Below the pieces are notes generated by a model, which was not told where the DNA came from, did no database searches, and worked only from the letters and a program-made list of their open reading frames with translations. Position numbers and translations under genes: made by a program. Positions 11,381 through 53,859 of a stretch of DNA of 54,321 nucleotides are shown here, piece by piece (within the stretch, counting starts at the first letter, position 1; each line of letters begins with the position of its first letter). Source of the stretch: Acidobacteriota bacterium (lineage in GTDB: Bacteria > Acidobacteriota > Thermoanaerobaculia > UBA5066). The DNA lies in contig PLZI01000034.1 in NCBI GenBank assembly GCA_003152095.1, forward strand, positions 6,654 through 60,974. The letters are read 5' to 3'.

Positions 11381-12393
11381 AGGCCGTCCTCGTTCGATCG
11401 CTCGACGACGTGGCCGTGGTGGACATGGATCCTCCGGTCGCGGGCCCCGGCGAGATCGTCGTCGCGATGAAGGCCGTGGGCATCTGCGGCAGCGATACGA
11501 CGCCGTGGTACGTCGAGACGAAAGCGCCCGTCGTCCTCGGCCACGAGCCGGCGGGAGTCGTCGCCGAGGTCGGGGCTCTCGTCACGGCGTTCCGGCCCGG
11601 AGACCGCGTCGTCGTGCATCACCACGCCGCTTGCGGCGCCTGCCGCTTCTGCCGCGCGGGGGAAGACGTCATGTGCCCCGAGTGGAAGAAGACGCGCCTC
11701 CATCCCGGCGGGCTCGCCGAGCGCGTGCGCGTCGAAGAGGCCGCGGTGGCCCGGGATACGCTGCGGCTGCCGGACGCCCTTTCCTTCGAGGACGGCGCCC
11801 TCGTCGAACCGCTCGCGTGCGCCGTGAAGGCCGCCCGCCGGGCGCGAGTCGGGGCGGGGGACGCCGTCGCCGTCATCGGTCTCGGAGCGAACGGCATCCT
11901 GCTCGGCCTCGTCGCGAAATCGGCGGGCGCAGGACCGCTCGTCGGCTGCGATCCCGACCCCGCGCGGAGAGCGCACGCGCGTCGACTGGGGTTCGACGCG
12001 GCGGGAGAGCCCGGAAGAGATTTTTCTGAGAAGGTGAAGAGGGCCTCGGCGGTCGGGGCCGACGTGGTCTTCGTGCTGCCGACGGCCGAAGAGGCCGTGC
12101 TTTCCTCTCTCGAGGCGGCGGGCCCCGCCGGCCGCGTTGTCTTCTATTCGCCAGTTGAGCCCTCGAAGGCGTGGCGGCTCTCCCCTCATTCGTTGTATCT
12201 CCGGGATCTCTCGCTACTCTTCAGCTACTCCTGCGGGGCGGCCGACATGCGGGAGGCGCTCGCACTTCTCGAGCGTGGCACGGTCCGCGCCGCGGACCTC
12301 GTGACGCACCGCGTGCCGTTCGCGCGGGCCGGCGAGGCCTTCGCGCTCGCGCGGAAGGGGGGCGACGTGCTGAAGGTCGTCGTGACGTTCTGA
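11377..12393 (+). CDS. Zinc-dependent alcohol/polyol dehydrogenase (MDR family)
   Basis: A 338-aa medium-chain dehydrogenase, paralogous to the preceding gene. Catalytic zinc ligands sit in GICGSD and GHEPAG; the structural zinc lobe is CGACRFCRAGEDVMC, and the NAD(P) site is IGLGANG. It resembles sorbitol/threonine dehydrogenases. GTG at 11377 overlaps the previous stop. Tandem MDR paralogues in one operon often act on successive or oppositely oriented alcohol/ketone steps, but nothing here names the substrate. Its stop TGA overlaps the inferred CTG start of tlyA. Confidence 0.82.
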   Translation: MKAVLVRSLDDVAVVDMDPPVAGPGEIVVAMKAVGICGSDTTPWYVETKAPVVLGHEPAGVVAEVGALVTAFRPGDRVVVHHHAACGACRFCRAGEDVMCPEWKKTRLHPGGLAERVRVEEAAVARDTLRLPDALSFEDGALVEPLACAVKAARRARVGAGDAVAVIGLGANGILLGLVAKSAGAGPLVGCDPDPARRAHARRLGFDAAGEPGRDFSEKVKRASAVGADVVFVLPTAEEAVLSSLEAAGPAGRVVFYSPVEPSKAWRLSPHSLYLRDLSLLFSYSCGAADMREALALLERGTVRAADLVTHRVPFARAGEAFALARKGGDVLKVVVTF

Positions 12394-13139
12394 AGAAGCG
12401 CCTCGACGTCGTCCTCGTGGACCGCGGGCTCGCGGAATCGCGCTCGCGAGCCGAGGCGCTCATCCTCGCGGGCCGTGTCTCTGTCGTCGGCCGCGAGCGG
12501 GTCAAGCCCGGCACGCCCGTTGCGGAAGACGCCGAGATCGCCGTCGGGGAGCCGGAGCATCCCTGGGTCTCGCGTGGGGGCGTGAAGCTGGATTTCGGCC
12601 TGACTCATTTCGCGATCGAGCCGAGAGGGCGAGTCTGCCTGGATCTCGGCGCCTCGACGGGAGGATTCACGGATGTGCTTCTTGCGCGCGGCGCCTCCCG
12701 GGTCTACGCCCTCGACGTCGGGTACGGGCAGCTTCATGCCCGGCTGCGGAACGACCCCCGCGTCGTCGTTCGCGAGAAGGTGAACGCGCGGTTTCTGTCG
12801 CGCGCGGACGTACCCGAGGCGCCCTCGCTGCTCGTGGCGGACGTCTCGTTCATCTCGCTCACCCTCGTCCTGCCGGCGGCCGTGCCGCTTCTCGCGGAAC
12901 GAGCCGACGTCCTCCTTCTCGTCAAGCCTCAGTTCGAAGCGGAGCGTCGAGAGGTCGGCCGGGGCGGCATCGTGCGCGACGAGGGCGTGCGGGCGCGGGC
13001 GGTGGCGCGCGTGACAGCGACCGCCGCGGCGCTCTCTCTCGCGAGCCGCGGGGTCGTCCCGTCGCCGATCACGGGGGCGGAGGGCAACGTGGAGCTCCTC
13101 GCGGCGTTCCGCCGGAATCCCGCTACACTTGCCGGGTGA
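12390..13139 (+). CDS. tlyA: TlyA-family rRNA 2'-O-methyltransferase, inferred CTG start
   Basis: A 249-aa protein with an N-terminal S4 RNA-binding domain (KKRLDVVLVDRGLAESRSRA) and an FtsJ-like methyltransferase domain. The SAM motif is CLDLGASTGGFTD, followed by YALDVGYGQL and VKPQFE. TlyA methylates 16S and/or 23S rRNA ribose. Family members begin with (M/L)KKRLDVLLV, which fixes the start here at a CTG codon that overlaps the upstream stop as CTGA. The only canonical alternatives are an ATG at 12171, deep inside the dehydrogenase, and a GTG at 12417 that would delete the first S4 strand. The downstream nadK pairing is the common tlyA-nadK order. Confidence 0.88.
   Translation: MKKRLDVVLVDRGLAESRSRAEALILAGRVSVVGRERVKPGTPVAEDAEIAVGEPEHPWVSRGGVKLDFGLTHFAIEPRGRVCLDLGASTGGFTDVLLARGASRVYALDVGYGQLHARLRNDPRVVVREKVNARFLSRADVPEAPSLLVADVSFISLTLVLPAAVPLLAERADVLLLVKPQFEAERREVGRGGIVRDEGVRARAVARVTATAAALSLASRGVVPSPITGAEGNVELLAAFRRNPATLAG
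13124..13129 (+). promoter_or_regulatory. -10-like element TACACT before nadK
   Basis: It lies inside the 3' end of tlyA, 6 nt before the GTG start of nadK. It could give an internal leaderless transcript for nadK in addition to read-through from the operon. Confidence 0.3.
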
Positions 13140-38307: not shown

Positions 38308-39009
38308 CTACCGGTAGATCACGAGGATGCCCGCAAGACCCATCTCGCCGAGGGATTCTCGCGCGGTATCGGCCTCTTTGCGTGTTTCGTACGGCCCGAA
38401 CTTCACGCGTTTCAGCCCTTTGAACTCCTCGACGTACGGTGTCGGGTAGCGCGAGGCGAGGCGGTCCCTCAGCCGGACCGCGTTCGCCTTGTCGCCGAAC
38501 GCGCCGGCCTGGACAGCCCACGCGTCGGCGCGCGGCGCGGCTGCCGTGCTCGTGGCATTCGCCGTGTTCGCGGCCGTGATGGCCGGGGGCTCGTCGGTGC
38601 CGGCCCGAATGCGCGTGTTGTCGCCCAGCGTCACGACCCGTAGGGAGACCGGCACGACGCCGTCCGCGACGGAGCCGATCTCGGCCGCCGCGGCCTTCGA
38701 GAGGTCCAAGATCCGGCCCGCGATAAACGGCCCTCGGTCGTTGATCTTCACGCGGACGGTTTTCCCGTTTTTCTCGTTCGTCACGTCCACGACCGTGCCG
38801 AGCGGCAGCGTGCGGTGCGCGGCCGAGATCTTCTCGGGACGGAACATCTCGCCTGAAGCCGTCGGCAGCCCGTCGAACTCCTTGCCGTACCAAGAGGCCA
38901 GGCCTCGCTCGCCTCCTCTCGCGCCAGGGGCGGTCTTCGCGGACGGGCGAGAGGAGCAGCCGACGAGGAAGAGGAAGAGAACGAGGAAATATTCTCTCTT
39001 CGTTCTCAG
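38308..39009 (-). CDS. rlpA: RlpA-like lipoprotein with SPOR domain, inferred CTG start
   Basis: A 233-aa septal-ring lytic transglycosylase-like lipoprotein. From a CTG codon at 39009 the frame gives a basic n-region (RTKRE), a hydrophobic core and a perfect lipobox LVGC at Cys18. The RlpA double-psi beta-barrel follows (SWYGKEFDG, TASGEMF, HRTLPLGT, NDRGPF), and a C-terminal SPOR domain (WAVQAGAFGD...) binds denuded glycan. No ATG, GTG or TTG exists between the upstream in-frame stop (39022-39024) and the conserved core. The only ATG (38847) would remove the lipobox and SWYG. The CTG overlaps the purB stop as CTGA. Confidence 0.88.
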   Translation of the reverse strand: MRTKREYFLVLFLFLVGCSSRPSAKTAPGARGGERGLASWYGKEFDGLPTASGEMFRPEKISAAHRTLPLGTVVDVTNEKNGKTVRVKINDRGPFIAGRILDLSKAAAAEIGSVADGVVPVSLRVVTLGDNTRIRAGTDEPPAITAANTANATSTAAAPRADAWAVQAGAFGDKANAVRLRDRLASRYPTPYVEEFKGLKRVKFGPYETRKEADTARESLGEMGLAGILVIYR

Positions 39010-40629: not shown

Positions 40630-40654
40630 CACGCGATCCCGTGGGCGTTCAGGT

Positions 40655-40660
40655 TAGCAT
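40655..40660 (+). promoter_or_regulatory. -10-like element TAGCAT upstream of arcA
   Basis: It lies in the divergent region between the small zinc-ribbon gene and arcA, 28 nt before the ATG at 40689 and 37 nt before the ATG at 40698. Confidence 0.3.
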
Positions 40661-40697
40661 CCCGCTGGCGGTCCGCGCCGCCCCTTTCATGCCGGCC

Positions 40698-41981
40698 ATG
40701 ACGCTTTCCGTGGACTCCGAGATCGGTCGCCTGCGCTCGGTCCTCGTCCACGAGCCTGGGCGCGAGATCGACCGGATGGTGCCGTCGATGATGCTGGACC
40801 TGCTCTTCGACGACATCCTGTTCGGCGCGCGCGCACGCGAAGAGCACCGAAGGTTCCGGCAAGTGCTTCGCTTCGTCGCGGACGAGGTGCTCGACGTTCA
40901 GGATCTCCTCGATGAGGTCCTCCGCGATCCCGAGGCCCGGAGCGAGGTGCTTGCGGACCTCGCCGCGCTGCTCGCATGGCCGCCGTCCGTTCTTCACGCG
41001 CTGACCGAGCTGCCGCCCGGCAAGCTCGCGGCGGGCCTCGTGGAGGGTCTCGAACGCCCCGAGCCCGCGATTTCCGGCTCCCTCGATTCTCTCTACCTGC
41101 TTCCGCCGCTGCCAAACTGGTTCTTCCAGCGCGATCCGGCCACCGTCGTGGGCGATCGCGTCGTGAGGGGCTCGATGGCGACCCGTGCGCGCTGGCGCGA
41201 GCCGTTGCTCTCCGGTGCCGTGTTCGCCCGGCACCGGCGATTCGCCGGGGCCGGGCCGCGCTTCTGGTTCCAGGAGTTCGCCGCGGGCGAGGGGCGCGAC
41301 CTCGCCTGGGCGCGGATGCGGCCGACGCTCGAGGGGGGCGACGTCTTCGTGCTTTCTCCCGAAGTGCTCGTCATCGGCTATTCGGAGCGCACGGAGAAGA
41401 CGACGATCGAGCGCCTTGCCGAGGCGCTCCGGCGGGAGGGGTCGCGCGTGCGCAAGATTCTCGTCGTGGCGATTCCGCCGCAACGCGCGACGATGCACCT
41501 CGACACGGTGTTCACGCGCATCTCGGCGGGCGAGTGCCTCTGTTACGGACCGATGATCCTGTCGGGCGGCGCGGAGGAGGCGGACGTGTACGAAGCCGAT
41601 CTCACGACGCGTGAGATCGCGTGGACCACGAAGGACGACCTGCTCGCGGCGCTTGCGGCGCTCGGCATCGACCTCGCGCCCATCCTCTGCGGCGGCGCGG
41701 ACCCGATCGACCAGCAGCGCGAGCAGTGGACCGACGGCGCGAACGCGTTCGCCCTCGCGCCCGGCGTCATCCTCTGCTACGACCGGAACGAACGTACCGC
41801 CGAGTCGCTCGCGCGCCATGGATACACTGTCGTGGCCGACGACGATCTCCTCCTGGGAAGGGAGACGCTCGACCTGAGAAAGCCCGGCAAGCACGCGATC
41901 CTGCTTTCGGCGCCCGAGTTGTCCCGCGCGCGGGGTGGCCCACGCTGCATGACGATGCCGCTCGTGCGCGATCCGGTGTAA
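40698..41981 (+). CDS. arcA: Arginine deiminase
   Basis: A 427-aa guanidino-modifying enzyme converting arginine to citrulline and ammonia. Visible motifs are VLVHEPGREI, FQRDP, LEGGDVFVLS, the catalytic His in MHLDTVF, and the nucleophile Cys in GGPRCMTMP near the C-terminus. The start at 40698 matches the family N-terminus; an ATG at 40689 or GTG at 40641 is also in frame. The ornithine carbamoyltransferase gene follows after 11 nt, so the pair can carry out the first two steps of the arginine deiminase pathway. No carbamate kinase gene is in the window. Confidence 0.9.
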   Translation: MTLSVDSEIGRLRSVLVHEPGREIDRMVPSMMLDLLFDDILFGARAREEHRRFRQVLRFVADEVLDVQDLLDEVLRDPEARSEVLADLAALLAWPPSVLHALTELPPGKLAAGLVEGLERPEPAISGSLDSLYLLPPLPNWFFQRDPATVVGDRVVRGSMATRARWREPLLSGAVFARHRRFAGAGPRFWFQEFAAGEGRDLAWARMRPTLEGGDVFVLSPEVLVIGYSERTEKTTIERLAEALRREGSRVRKILVVAIPPQRATMHLDTVFTRISAGECLCYGPMILSGGAEEADVYEADLTTREIAWTTKDDLLAALAALGIDLAPILCGGADPIDQQREQWTDGANAFALAPGVILCYDRNERTAESLARHGYTVVADDDLLLGRETLDLRKPGKHAILLSAPELSRARGGPRCMTMPLVRDPV

Positions 41982-41992
41982 AAAGGACGGCG

Positions 41993-42916
41993 ATGTTCCA
42001 GAAAGATCTCATCTCGATTCACGACCTGACCGGCGCCGACGTCGCGACCCTCTTCACCCTCGCTGCCGGCATGAAGGCGCGTCCGCGGGATTTCCGATCA
42101 GCGCTCTCCGGGAAGATCCTCGCCATGATCTTCGAGAAGTCGTCCACGCGGACGCGCGTCTCCTTCGAGGCCGGGATGACCCAGCTCGGCGGCGCGGCGC
42201 AGTTTCTGTCGTCCCGCGACATCCAGATCGGACGCGGCGAGCCGATCGCGGACACGGCGCGCGTCCTCTCGCGATACGTGGACGGCATCATGGCGCGTAC
42301 CTTCGCGCACGACACGGTCCTCGAGCTCGCCCGCCACGCGACGATCCCCGTCATCAACGGCCTGACCGACCTTCTTCACCCGTGCCAGGCCCTGACGGAC
42401 TACTTCACGATGAGCGAGAAGTTCGGGAAGTTGACGGGCTTCAAGCTCGCGTACGTCGGCGACGGGAACAACATGGCGCACTCGCTCATGTACGGGGGGC
42501 CGAAGTGCGGCGTCGATGTCGCCGTCGCGACGCCGAAGGGCTATGAACCGGACGCCACCGTCACCGCGAACGCGCACGCGGACGCGACCGCGGCGGGAAC
42601 GACGCTGCTCGTCACGCATTCGAAGGAAGAGGCCGTCCGAGGGGCCCACGTGATCTACACCGACGTGTGGGCCTCGATGGGGCAGGAGGCCGAGCAGCAG
42701 AAGCGCGTGCGCGATTTCGCGGGCTGGACGGTCACGAGCGAGCTTCTCGCCCTCGCGCACCCCGACGCCGTTTTCATGCACTGCCTCCCCGCGCACCGCG
42801 GCGAAGAGGTGGCGGCCGAGGTGTGCGACGGACCACGCTCCGTCATCTTCGACGAGGCGGAGAACCGCCTCCACGTCCAGAAGGCGATCCTCGCCACGTT
42901 GATGGACCGCCCCTGA
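41993..42916 (+). CDS. argF: Ornithine carbamoyltransferase
   Basis: A 307-aa transcarbamylase. The carbamoyl-phosphate motif SSTRTRVSFE, HPCQALTDY and the ornithine-site MHCLPAHRG are complete. AAAAGGACGG lies ahead of the ATG. Its position behind arginine deiminase suggests a catabolic role (ArcB), but sequence alone does not distinguish it from biosynthetic ArgF. The stop TGA overlaps the inferred CTG start of the next gene. Confidence 0.93.
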   Translation: MFQKDLISIHDLTGADVATLFTLAAGMKARPRDFRSALSGKILAMIFEKSSTRTRVSFEAGMTQLGGAAQFLSSRDIQIGRGEPIADTARVLSRYVDGIMARTFAHDTVLELARHATIPVINGLTDLLHPCQALTDYFTMSEKFGKLTGFKLAYVGDGNNMAHSLMYGGPKCGVDVAVATPKGYEPDATVTANAHADATAAGTTLLVTHSKEEAVRGAHVIYTDVWASMGQEAEQQKRVRDFAGWTVTSELLALAHPDAVFMHCLPAHRGEEVAAEVCDGPRSVIFDEAENRLHVQKAILATLMDRP

Positions 42917-43953
42917 CGCGCCGCCTCGCCCTCGCCGCCGGCTGTTGCGCCCTCGCGCTGGGCGGCGCCTGCCGGAAGAGCGGCCCCGCTGTGCGGTCTT
43001 CGGCCGCCTCTCCGGACGACGCGGGCGTCGTCACGCTGGAGCGCGTTGCCGCGCGCGCCGAGGCGGCGCCAAACTCTCCTTCGATCCTCACGCTGCCTCG
43101 CGGGACCGTCTTGAAGCTGCGCGAGGCCCGCGACGATTCTGTTCACGTCGTGGTCGAGGGGCGGGACGTCTGGATCCCGGCCGACAGCTTCGAGCGGATG
43201 GCCGACCGCGAGGCGCGCGAGAAGCGCGCCGTCGCCGTGGCGGGCTTCTCGCCCCAGCCGGCGCGGGCCGTCGAGTCCTGTCCCGTTCTTCTCGCCCCGG
43301 ATTACGGCGCTGCGCGGTGGGGCTCGCTCGAAGACGGCGACGACGTGGACGTCGTGCTCGCGGATCACGATTTCTTCGGCGTGCGCCTCGCGGGAAAGAT
43401 CCTCGCGTTCGTGCCCGCGCGCTCCGTGCGCCTCCTGCCCTCGTCCGTTGCGGCGATTCCCGCCGGGCCCTCCGGACGCGGGGTGGTGCCGGAGGTGCAG
43501 TCGCTGGGAGTTCCCGACCGGGACTTGCGCCCGGCGGCCGCCGGGCGCACCCCGGCACCCACGGCAGACGCGGGCGCCGCCCCTGCGACCTCTTCTGCCG
43601 CGGCCGTGGCCGCGGCGGCGCCGGCCCTTTCGCAGGCTCCTCTGGTCTCGCTTCCGGACGGGGCCGAGATTCCCGTTCTCCTGTCGCGCGTGGATGCACG
43701 TTACCCGGAGGCGGCGCGCCGGCTGAATCTGAGCGGCGACGTCGTATTGCGCATCGTCATCGAGGCGAACGGCTCCGTGGGCAGGATCGACGTGATGACG
43801 CCCGGCCCCGCAGGTATGACGGAAGCCGCCGTGGATGCCGTGCGGCGCTGGACGTATCGCCCCGCGCGGATCGCCGGGCAGCAAGTGGCCGTATGGAAGG
43901 TCGTCCGCATCCGCTTCGTCCGGACGGTCGAGAGAGAGCCCCCGCCGGACTGA
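42913..43953 (+). CDS. TonB-C domain lipoprotein-like protein, inferred CTG start
   Basis: A 346-aa exported protein. From a CTG at 42913 (CTGA overlap with argF) it has a twin-Arg basic start (TRR), a hydrophobic stretch and a Cys soon after (GGAC at ~21-24), resembling a lipoprotein signal. Two SH3-like beta regions follow (about 60-100 and 130-180), then an Ala/Pro-rich linker, and a TonB C-terminal domain (about 265-340: ARYPEAARR, GDVVLRIVIEANG, WTYRPA). There is no canonical start between argF and the signal; a GTG beyond the signal would lose it. A TonB-C domain without an N-terminal TonB anchor is common in energiser-related or envelope proteins of this group. Role unknown. Confidence 0.75.
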   Translation: MTRRLALAAGCCALALGGACRKSGPAVRSSAASPDDAGVVTLERVAARAEAAPNSPSILTLPRGTVLKLREARDDSVHVVVEGRDVWIPADSFERMADREAREKRAVAVAGFSPQPARAVESCPVLLAPDYGAARWGSLEDGDDVDVVLADHDFFGVRLAGKILAFVPARSVRLLPSSVAAIPAGPSGRGVVPEVQSLGVPDRDLRPAAAGRTPAPTADAGAAPATSSAAAVAAAAPALSQAPLVSLPDGAEIPVLLSRVDARYPEAARRLNLSGDVVLRIVIEANGSVGRIDVMTPGPAGMTEAAVDAVRRWTYRPARIAGQQVAVWKVVRIRFVRTVEREPPPD

Positions 43954-53131: not shown

Positions 53132-53859
53132 TCGTGTCCGGCTTCCACCCGGTGCGCGAGGTGCTCGAGCGGCGGCCGCGCTCGGTCGAGGCTCTGCTCG
53201 TGCAACGCGGCCGCAAGGACGCTCGCGTCGCGGAGATCGAGGAGCTTGCCCGCGAGAAGGGCGTCTCCGTCCGCATTGTCGCGAAGGAGGAGCTCGACCG
53301 GGCCGCGGGCCGCGCGCACAATGGAGTCGCGGCTCGTGTCGCGGAGCGCGCGTACGACGACGTCGAAGACTGCCTCGCGGGACCGAAGGGGAGCCGCTGC
53401 GTCCTGTTCCTCGACGAGATCACGGACTCCGGCAACCTCGGTTCTGTCCTGAGGACGGCCGCCGCGGCGGGGGCGTCTGTCGTTCTCACCGAGCGGCATT
53501 CGGCGGGCCTGAACGAGACCGTTTCGAAGGCCTCGGCCGGGGCGCTGGAGCGGGTGAAGGTCGGCAGGGTGGTCAATGCCGCCCGCTTCATCGAGCAGGC
53601 GAAGGAGGCCGGCTTCTGGGTATTCGGCGCCGCAGTGGAGGGTGAAAACCTTTACAGCGTAGACATTTCCGGCGACGCGGTGCTCTGTCTCGGCTCGGAG
53701 GGGACGGGTCTCAGGCGTCTCACGATGGAATCATGTGATCGATTGATTTCCATTCCGATGCGCCCGGGGGCAGGTTCGCTCAATGTGGCCGTGGCCGCCG
53801 GAGTCCTCGCGTTCGACTGGGTGAGGCGCCGGAGCGCCTCCGGTGGCAATCCGGCATGA
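53128..53859 (+). CDS. rlmB: 23S rRNA (guanosine 2'-O)-methyltransferase, TrmH/SpoU family
   Basis: A 243-aa SPOUT enzyme. The N-terminal substrate-binding domain starts GFHPVREVLERRP. The catalytic motifs are DEITDSGNLGSVLRTA (motif 1), LGSEGTGL (motif 2) and IPMRPGAGSLNVAVAAGVLAF (motif 3). The GTG at 53128 overlaps ispF. RlmB is the likely assignment, with TrmH-like alternatives possible. Confidence 0.9.
   Translation: MIVSGFHPVREVLERRPRSVEALLVQRGRKDARVAEIEELAREKGVSVRIVAKEELDRAAGRAHNGVAARVAERAYDDVEDCLAGPKGSRCVLFLDEITDSGNLGSVLRTAAAAGASVVLTERHSAGLNETVSKASAGALERVKVGRVVNAARFIEQAKEAGFWVFGAAVEGENLYSVDISGDAVLCLGSEGTGLRRLTMESCDRLISIPMRPGAGSLNVAVAAGVLAFDWVRRRSASGGNPA

Follow-up and report, generated by a model that had tools for sequence, protein, structure and literature searches.

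Coupled gene pairs and CTG start codons

Termination-reinitiation is established for gene pairs that are joined by an NTGA sequence, in which the start codon of the downstream gene overlaps the stop codon of the upstream gene (-4 nt) and translation starts at the terminating ribosome (Huber et al. 2019, PMC6728339; PMC12548453). The gene pair described here, argF and a gene for a putative TonB-C-domain lipoprotein, shares with these pairs the overlapping bases, the common strand, the operon context and, apparently, the start at the terminating ribosome. Its junction is also conserved as in coupled pairs, being CTGA in all four species of the genus that were compared and ATGA or GTGA in other genera. 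The difference lies in the start codon, which in all four species is CTG rather than ATG, GTG, or TTG. In the literature that we searched, no description of CTGA as a start overlap, or of conserved CTGA starts, was found.

CTG starts are rare among annotated bacterial genes, with 20 ORFs (0.024%) in 69 model genomes (PMC9845219). Reporters that began with CUG yielded no detectable GUS in E. coli or in chloroplasts (PMC9845219), and in mycobacteria, CTG was not among the start codons selected (PMC4633059); both results count against reading CTG as a start. Furthermore, pairing between CUG and the initiator tRNA is poor at the first base, and the complexes formed are less stable (PMC11497404).

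A CTGA junction between argF and a putative lipoprotein gene

The stretch of DNA analyzed here (hereinafter, the window) spans 54,321 nt (positions 6654-60974 of contig C163) of a metagenome-assembled genome from the Thermoanaerobaculia (Acidobacteriota), denoted G000, whose assembly comprises 3.64 Mb in 182 contigs. In this window, argF, which encodes ornithine carbamoyltransferase and was identified from the ORF list and by matches to Pfam OTCace and OTCace_N, occupies positions 41993..42916 of the plus strand. It starts with ATG at 41993, and the protein ends with ...LATLMDRP, followed by a TGA stop codon at 42914-42916. The lipoprotein gene lies on the same strand (42913..43953; 346 aa counted from the CTG) and is delineated by an open frame, the coding score, orthologs in all relatives, and a TonB C-terminal domain. 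Its frame reads CTG-ACG-CGC-CGC..., that is, (M)TRRLALAAGCCALALGGAC-RKSG..., and closes with TGA at 43951-43953. As the sequence-only reading had stated, the frame opens at a CTG that overlaps the argF stop, the two codons together forming the CTGA at 42913..42916. In the genus, the gene order is arginine deiminase, argF, and the lipoprotein gene (window positions 40641-42916).

The TonB C-terminal domain (43699..43917; residues 263-335) matches PF03544 (TonB_C) with 58.2 bits, against a curated cut-off of 24.6 (E 1.1e-15), and it is this domain that the protein has in common with the TonB C-terminal domain family. Unlike classic TonB, with its membrane anchor and proline-rich spacer, the protein has a short lipoprotein-like N-terminus and a middle part that is assumed to be SH3-like. 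Read from CTG 42913, the N-terminus is (M)TRRLALAAGCCALALGGACRKSG..., with a pair of arginines, a hydrophobic stretch, and a cysteine; the lipobox of G000 is poor (GGAC), and that of the relatives is LASC or LSAC. The signal region (42913..42972), which is apparent from the translation and from the codon-position bias of substitutions, lies entirely ahead of the next canonical start. Between -102 and +99 relative to the CTG, the only in-frame ATG, GTG, or TTG codons are a GTG at -90, inside argF, and a GTG at +78 (42991..42993), beyond the signal and the cysteines. The earlier observation that there is no canonical start between argF and the signal thus agrees with this survey.

Conservation of the junction

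The genus sample consists of four species, namely, G000 and three relatives from different studies (G001, G002, and G003; contig records JAMQPJ, JARXKK, and CALAQS). All four carry CTGA at the argF/lipoprotein junction, and the last codon of argF varies among them (CCC, CTC, TCC, and ATC). Because these are separate assemblies, the junction is not an error of one of them.

Initiation at GTG -90 would add a 30-residue extension ahead of the hydrophobic stretch. The codon is present in G000 and G003 but is missing in G002, and it is dictated by the argF sequence (EVCDG). Upstream of the stop, substitutions track the argF frame only, with 5/4/14 differences at its three codon positions over 60 nt and 7/8/43 over -90..-1. 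Given, in addition, that a charged stretch of 30 aa before a signal is unlikely and that none is found in the relatives, we consider this start highly improbable.

A start at GTG +78 would yield a protein without a signal and leave the preceding stretch untranslated, and the coding score of the lipoprotein frame indeed rises clearly only from about +99. Against this, the codon is missing in G001, G002, and G003, the signal and the cysteine are kept in the relatives, and the stretch ahead evolves as coding sequence. From the CTG to +78, the differences from G000 number 6/13/22 at positions 1/2/3 of the lipoprotein frame (chi-square p 0.009), and 14/31/38 when all species pairs are counted; the pairs are not independent, so that these substitution counts are descriptive. 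Position 2 is also rather free, which fits a signal region. Initiation at +78 is therefore very unlikely.

In other genera of the family, arginine deiminase is located directly upstream of the lipoprotein gene, and argF is not adjacent. Among these genera, the lipoprotein gene starts at ATGA (G008), ATG (G004), or GTGA (G006), or else at an ATG or GTG two codons past a CTGA (G005, G007, G011, and G012). G013 has CTGA at the junction and a GTG 39 nt further on, and G017 has CTGA after argF and a GTG later; in these two, either codon may be the start. G038, from another family, has argF followed by ATGA. Thus, the starts in the other relatives lie at the junction or within a few codons of it (within two codons in the aligned orthologs of the lipoprotein gene), which indicates that the homologs begin there. 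Homologs starting only past the signal region, which the sequence-only reading had named as a finding that would speak against a CTG start, were not encountered.

The same comparison bears on the possibility that a -1 frameshift at C-CCC-TGA produces an ArgF-TonB fusion or that a single gene has been split by error. A run of four C directly precedes the TGA in G000, and a CTGA elsewhere in this genome (C37:737) resembles a split cytochrome. However, the sister species lack the run of C (CTC, TCC, and ATC), four separate assemblies agree, and argF and the lipoprotein gene belong to separate families that are not neighbors in the other genera of the family. Such a frameshift or split appears extremely improbable.

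Start codon swaps in orthologous genes

The sequence-only reading counted three CTGA overlaps in the window, and this count is borne out: in addition to the lipoprotein gene, CTGA is found at the start of tlyA (12390..13139, plus strand; CTG at 12390; S4 and FtsJ methyltransferase domains) and at that of an rlpA-like lipoprotein gene (38308..39009, minus strand; CTG at 39009). The start of tlyA is CTG in G000, G001, and G003, TTG in G004, G005, and G015, and GTG in G006 and G008; in G007, G011, and G012, the junction reads TGATG, and all the tlyA starts compared sit at the stop codon of the upstream gene. Counted from the CTG, residue 4 is the first of the S4 domain of TlyA, so that initiation further on, at GTG +27, would remove part of this domain. 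A phylum-wide pattern search for the tlyA start matched G000 alone, the pattern being too strict. For rlpA, CTGA is present in G000, G002, and G003; in the latter two genomes, an in-frame stop precedes the CTG by 2 and 5 codons, respectively, and no start follows until the lipobox, which leaves the CTG as the sole NTG option.

Similar swaps are seen in genes outside the window. All four species of the genus start glgA with CTG (in G000, on contig C61, 6 nt past the upstream stop), and the glgA start is GTG in G004 and G008, TTG in G005 and G018, and ATG in G006, G007, G011, and G012. The start of ftsE is CTG in G000 (contig C68, 4 nt past the upstream stop) and G001, GTG in G002, G003, G006, G007, and G008, and TTG in G004. 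The frame is closed, with CTG as the only start, for glgA in all the genus members seen and for ftsE in G001, as it is for rlpA in G002 and G003. Conserved CTGA junctions were further found for priA (C45:70374; four of the four genus species), an O-antigen-ligase-like gene (C7:6987; three of three), and an envC-like hydrolase-activator gene (C11:1009; the genus as well as G004, G005, G006, and G008, which represent four other genera).

The start swaps between orthologs are, in our assessment, the strongest evidence for CTG starts. Taken together, the sequence comparisons indicate that, in this genus, CTG truly functions as a minor start codon, for the lipoprotein gene and for seven or more further genes; by the same evidence, CTG starts the lipoprotein gene and tlyA and, very probably, rlpA.

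Frequency of CTG starts in the genome

NTGA junctions were counted in 1.69 Mb of G000 (47% of the assembly; 91 contigs), in which 1,299 genes were called with our own fifth-order periodic Markov model. Frame-matched overlaps comprised 100 ATGA, 115 GTGA, and 23 TTGA (238 altogether), along with 67 CTGA, most of the latter lying close to a canonical start (as in CTGATG). CTG is the only start at ~7 of the ~245 NTGA start overlaps (~3%), those of tlyA, the TonB-C lipoprotein gene, rlpA, the envC-like gene, the O-antigen-ligase-like gene, priA, and a crp-like gene; these seven show a coding signal or a conserved N-terminus for which no start but the CTG is available, and as N-termini were inspected in choosing them, the count is approximate. 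The crp-like gene (C35:2295), whose junction is not conserved in G002, was retained only as a weak candidate. C37:737 (L071) was excluded as a CTG start because cytochrome c lies in two frames at its CTGA, probably owing to a frameshift in the genome or in the assembly; this split gene shows that CTGA starts should be counted with care.

With the two additional CTG starts just past a stop (glgA and ftsE), the CTG total reaches ~0.7% of the called genes, compared to 0.024% of annotated ORFs in the model genomes; this comparison is loose because gene callers exclude CTG and, accordingly, the annotated counts are too low. The CTG starts described here also differ from those rare annotated cases in being conserved across species and swapped exactly for canonical starts. 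All nine CTG starts in the sampled part of G000 are located at a stop codon or a few bases from one, and their Shine-Dalgarno matches are longer than those at start-less CTGA stops (Mann-Whitney p 0.0002). A CTG-only junction occurs about once per 240 kb in the sampled 47%, so the three in the 54 kb of the window form a local cluster. The suggestion of the sequence-only reading that CTG is used systematically at coupled junctions in this genome therefore holds in part: CTG does serve as a start, but as a rare fourth choice, and also where genes do not overlap.

CTGA by itself is not rare in this genome, with C preceding 380 of the 905 TGA stops of called genes (42%). The junctions could, in principle, be products of chance in a GC-rich genome, with N-termini that only seem complete, and most of the 67 frame-matched CTGA do have normal starts. 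In a GC-rich control, a Methylobacterium plasmid (71.6% GC; gene caller started from the G000 model), none of the 16 frame-matched CTGA was CTG-only; set against 7 of 67 in G000, these numbers are too few for significance alone. Opposed to chance are the start swaps between orthologs together with the closed frames in tlyA, glgA, ftsE, rlpA, and infC (see below), which make this explanation very improbable. A genome-wide count at chance level had been named by the sequence-only reading as a finding that would speak against it; to judge from these comparisons, the absence of any other usable start combined with conservation across species is above chance.

infC and the initiation machinery

infC is the gene in which a start codon rejected by IF3 is normally wanted. 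In the relatives, it starts with ATT (G004-G008, G010, G012, and G013) or ATC (G009, as well as G000 itself). In the three sister species G001, G002, and G003 (L292, L289, and L287), the alignment reads CTG behind TAAGGAGGAAA, a perfect Shine-Dalgarno sequence. There is no overlap at these starts, so that the use of CTG is not confined to overlapping genes. E. coli infC starts with AUU (Butler et al. 1987, as cited in PMC9845219), and the likeness to that case consists in a non-canonical start of a conserved gene, with ATT or ATC in the relatives; the differences are the CTG in three species of the genus and the fact that the other genes with CTG starts are unrelated to IF3. The infC gene of G000 (C150 near 34984, L249) is broken by a run of N and seems truncated in profile searches; an apparent in-frame stop in this gene was rejected, being that run of N.

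The sequence-only reading proposed to look for peculiar features of the initiation factors or the initiator tRNA, and none came to light in the initiator tRNA of G000 or in IF3 of the sister species. The initiator tRNA (L272) is standard (C1-A72 mismatch, GGG/CCC anticodon stem, and CAT anticodon), and the sister species have an intact IF3, including IF3_C. No 16S rRNA was found in the G000 assembly.

Likely mechanism of CTG initiation

In all likelihood, the lipoprotein gene truly begins at CTG 42913, where the ribosome that has translated argF probably restarts, and CUG is accepted in this genus as a weak fourth NTG start codon. Under this mechanism, the ribosome would remain on the mRNA after terminating argF translation at UGA, move back by one base, and initiate again at the CUG that overlaps the stop; the initiator tRNA would be the ordinary one, forming two of the three anticodon pairs. 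Since CUG pairs poorly, a ribosome that is already on the codon plausibly helps. The product would start with fMet-TRRLALAA... and would be exported as a lipoprotein, in a yield that is probably low and tied to argF translation. In the genus, CUG would then serve only a few genes, most of them with an NTGA overlap or a stop just ahead of the start, and infC in addition.

The main rival to restart is fresh initiation guided by a Shine-Dalgarno sequence at the CTG, the overlap with argF being incidental; the two are indistinguishable from the sequence. The CTG starts of glgA, ftsE, and infC have Shine-Dalgarno sequences without an overlap, and AGGAGGAGG lies seven bases ahead of the CTGA of the O-antigen-ligase-like gene, all of which is consistent with fresh initiation. 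Conversely, the Shine-Dalgarno match ahead of the lipoprotein CTG is only 3 nt long, and the clustering of the CTG starts at or near stops described above argues for restart. We accordingly favor restart of the argF ribosome, and regard fresh initiation at this junction as rather unlikely. As a tentative extension, CUG might be a regular, weak start sensitive to IF3 that is used by post-termination ribosomes and mostly rejected by free 30S subunits; the genes concerned would be kept at low or coupled expression, and the CTG of infC would be autoregulatory.

The swaps of CTG with TTG, GTG, ATG, and ATC at orthologous starts amount to a natural experiment on start codon choice, and the CTGA overlaps allow one to test cleanly whether ribosomes that restart are exempt from the rejection that CUG usually meets. 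By default, gene callers and the NCBI rules admit no CTG starts; as a result, TlyA, PriA, GlgA, FtsE, the EnvC-like protein, and the lipoproteins would be shortened, lose their signals, or be dropped from annotation.

Another unusual start was noticed in recG (C45 of G000 near 53352, L138), which lies right after its upstream gene. There is no ATG, GTG, or TTG near the conserved N-terminus of this gene, and an ATT is in place, which may be a further non-canonical start.
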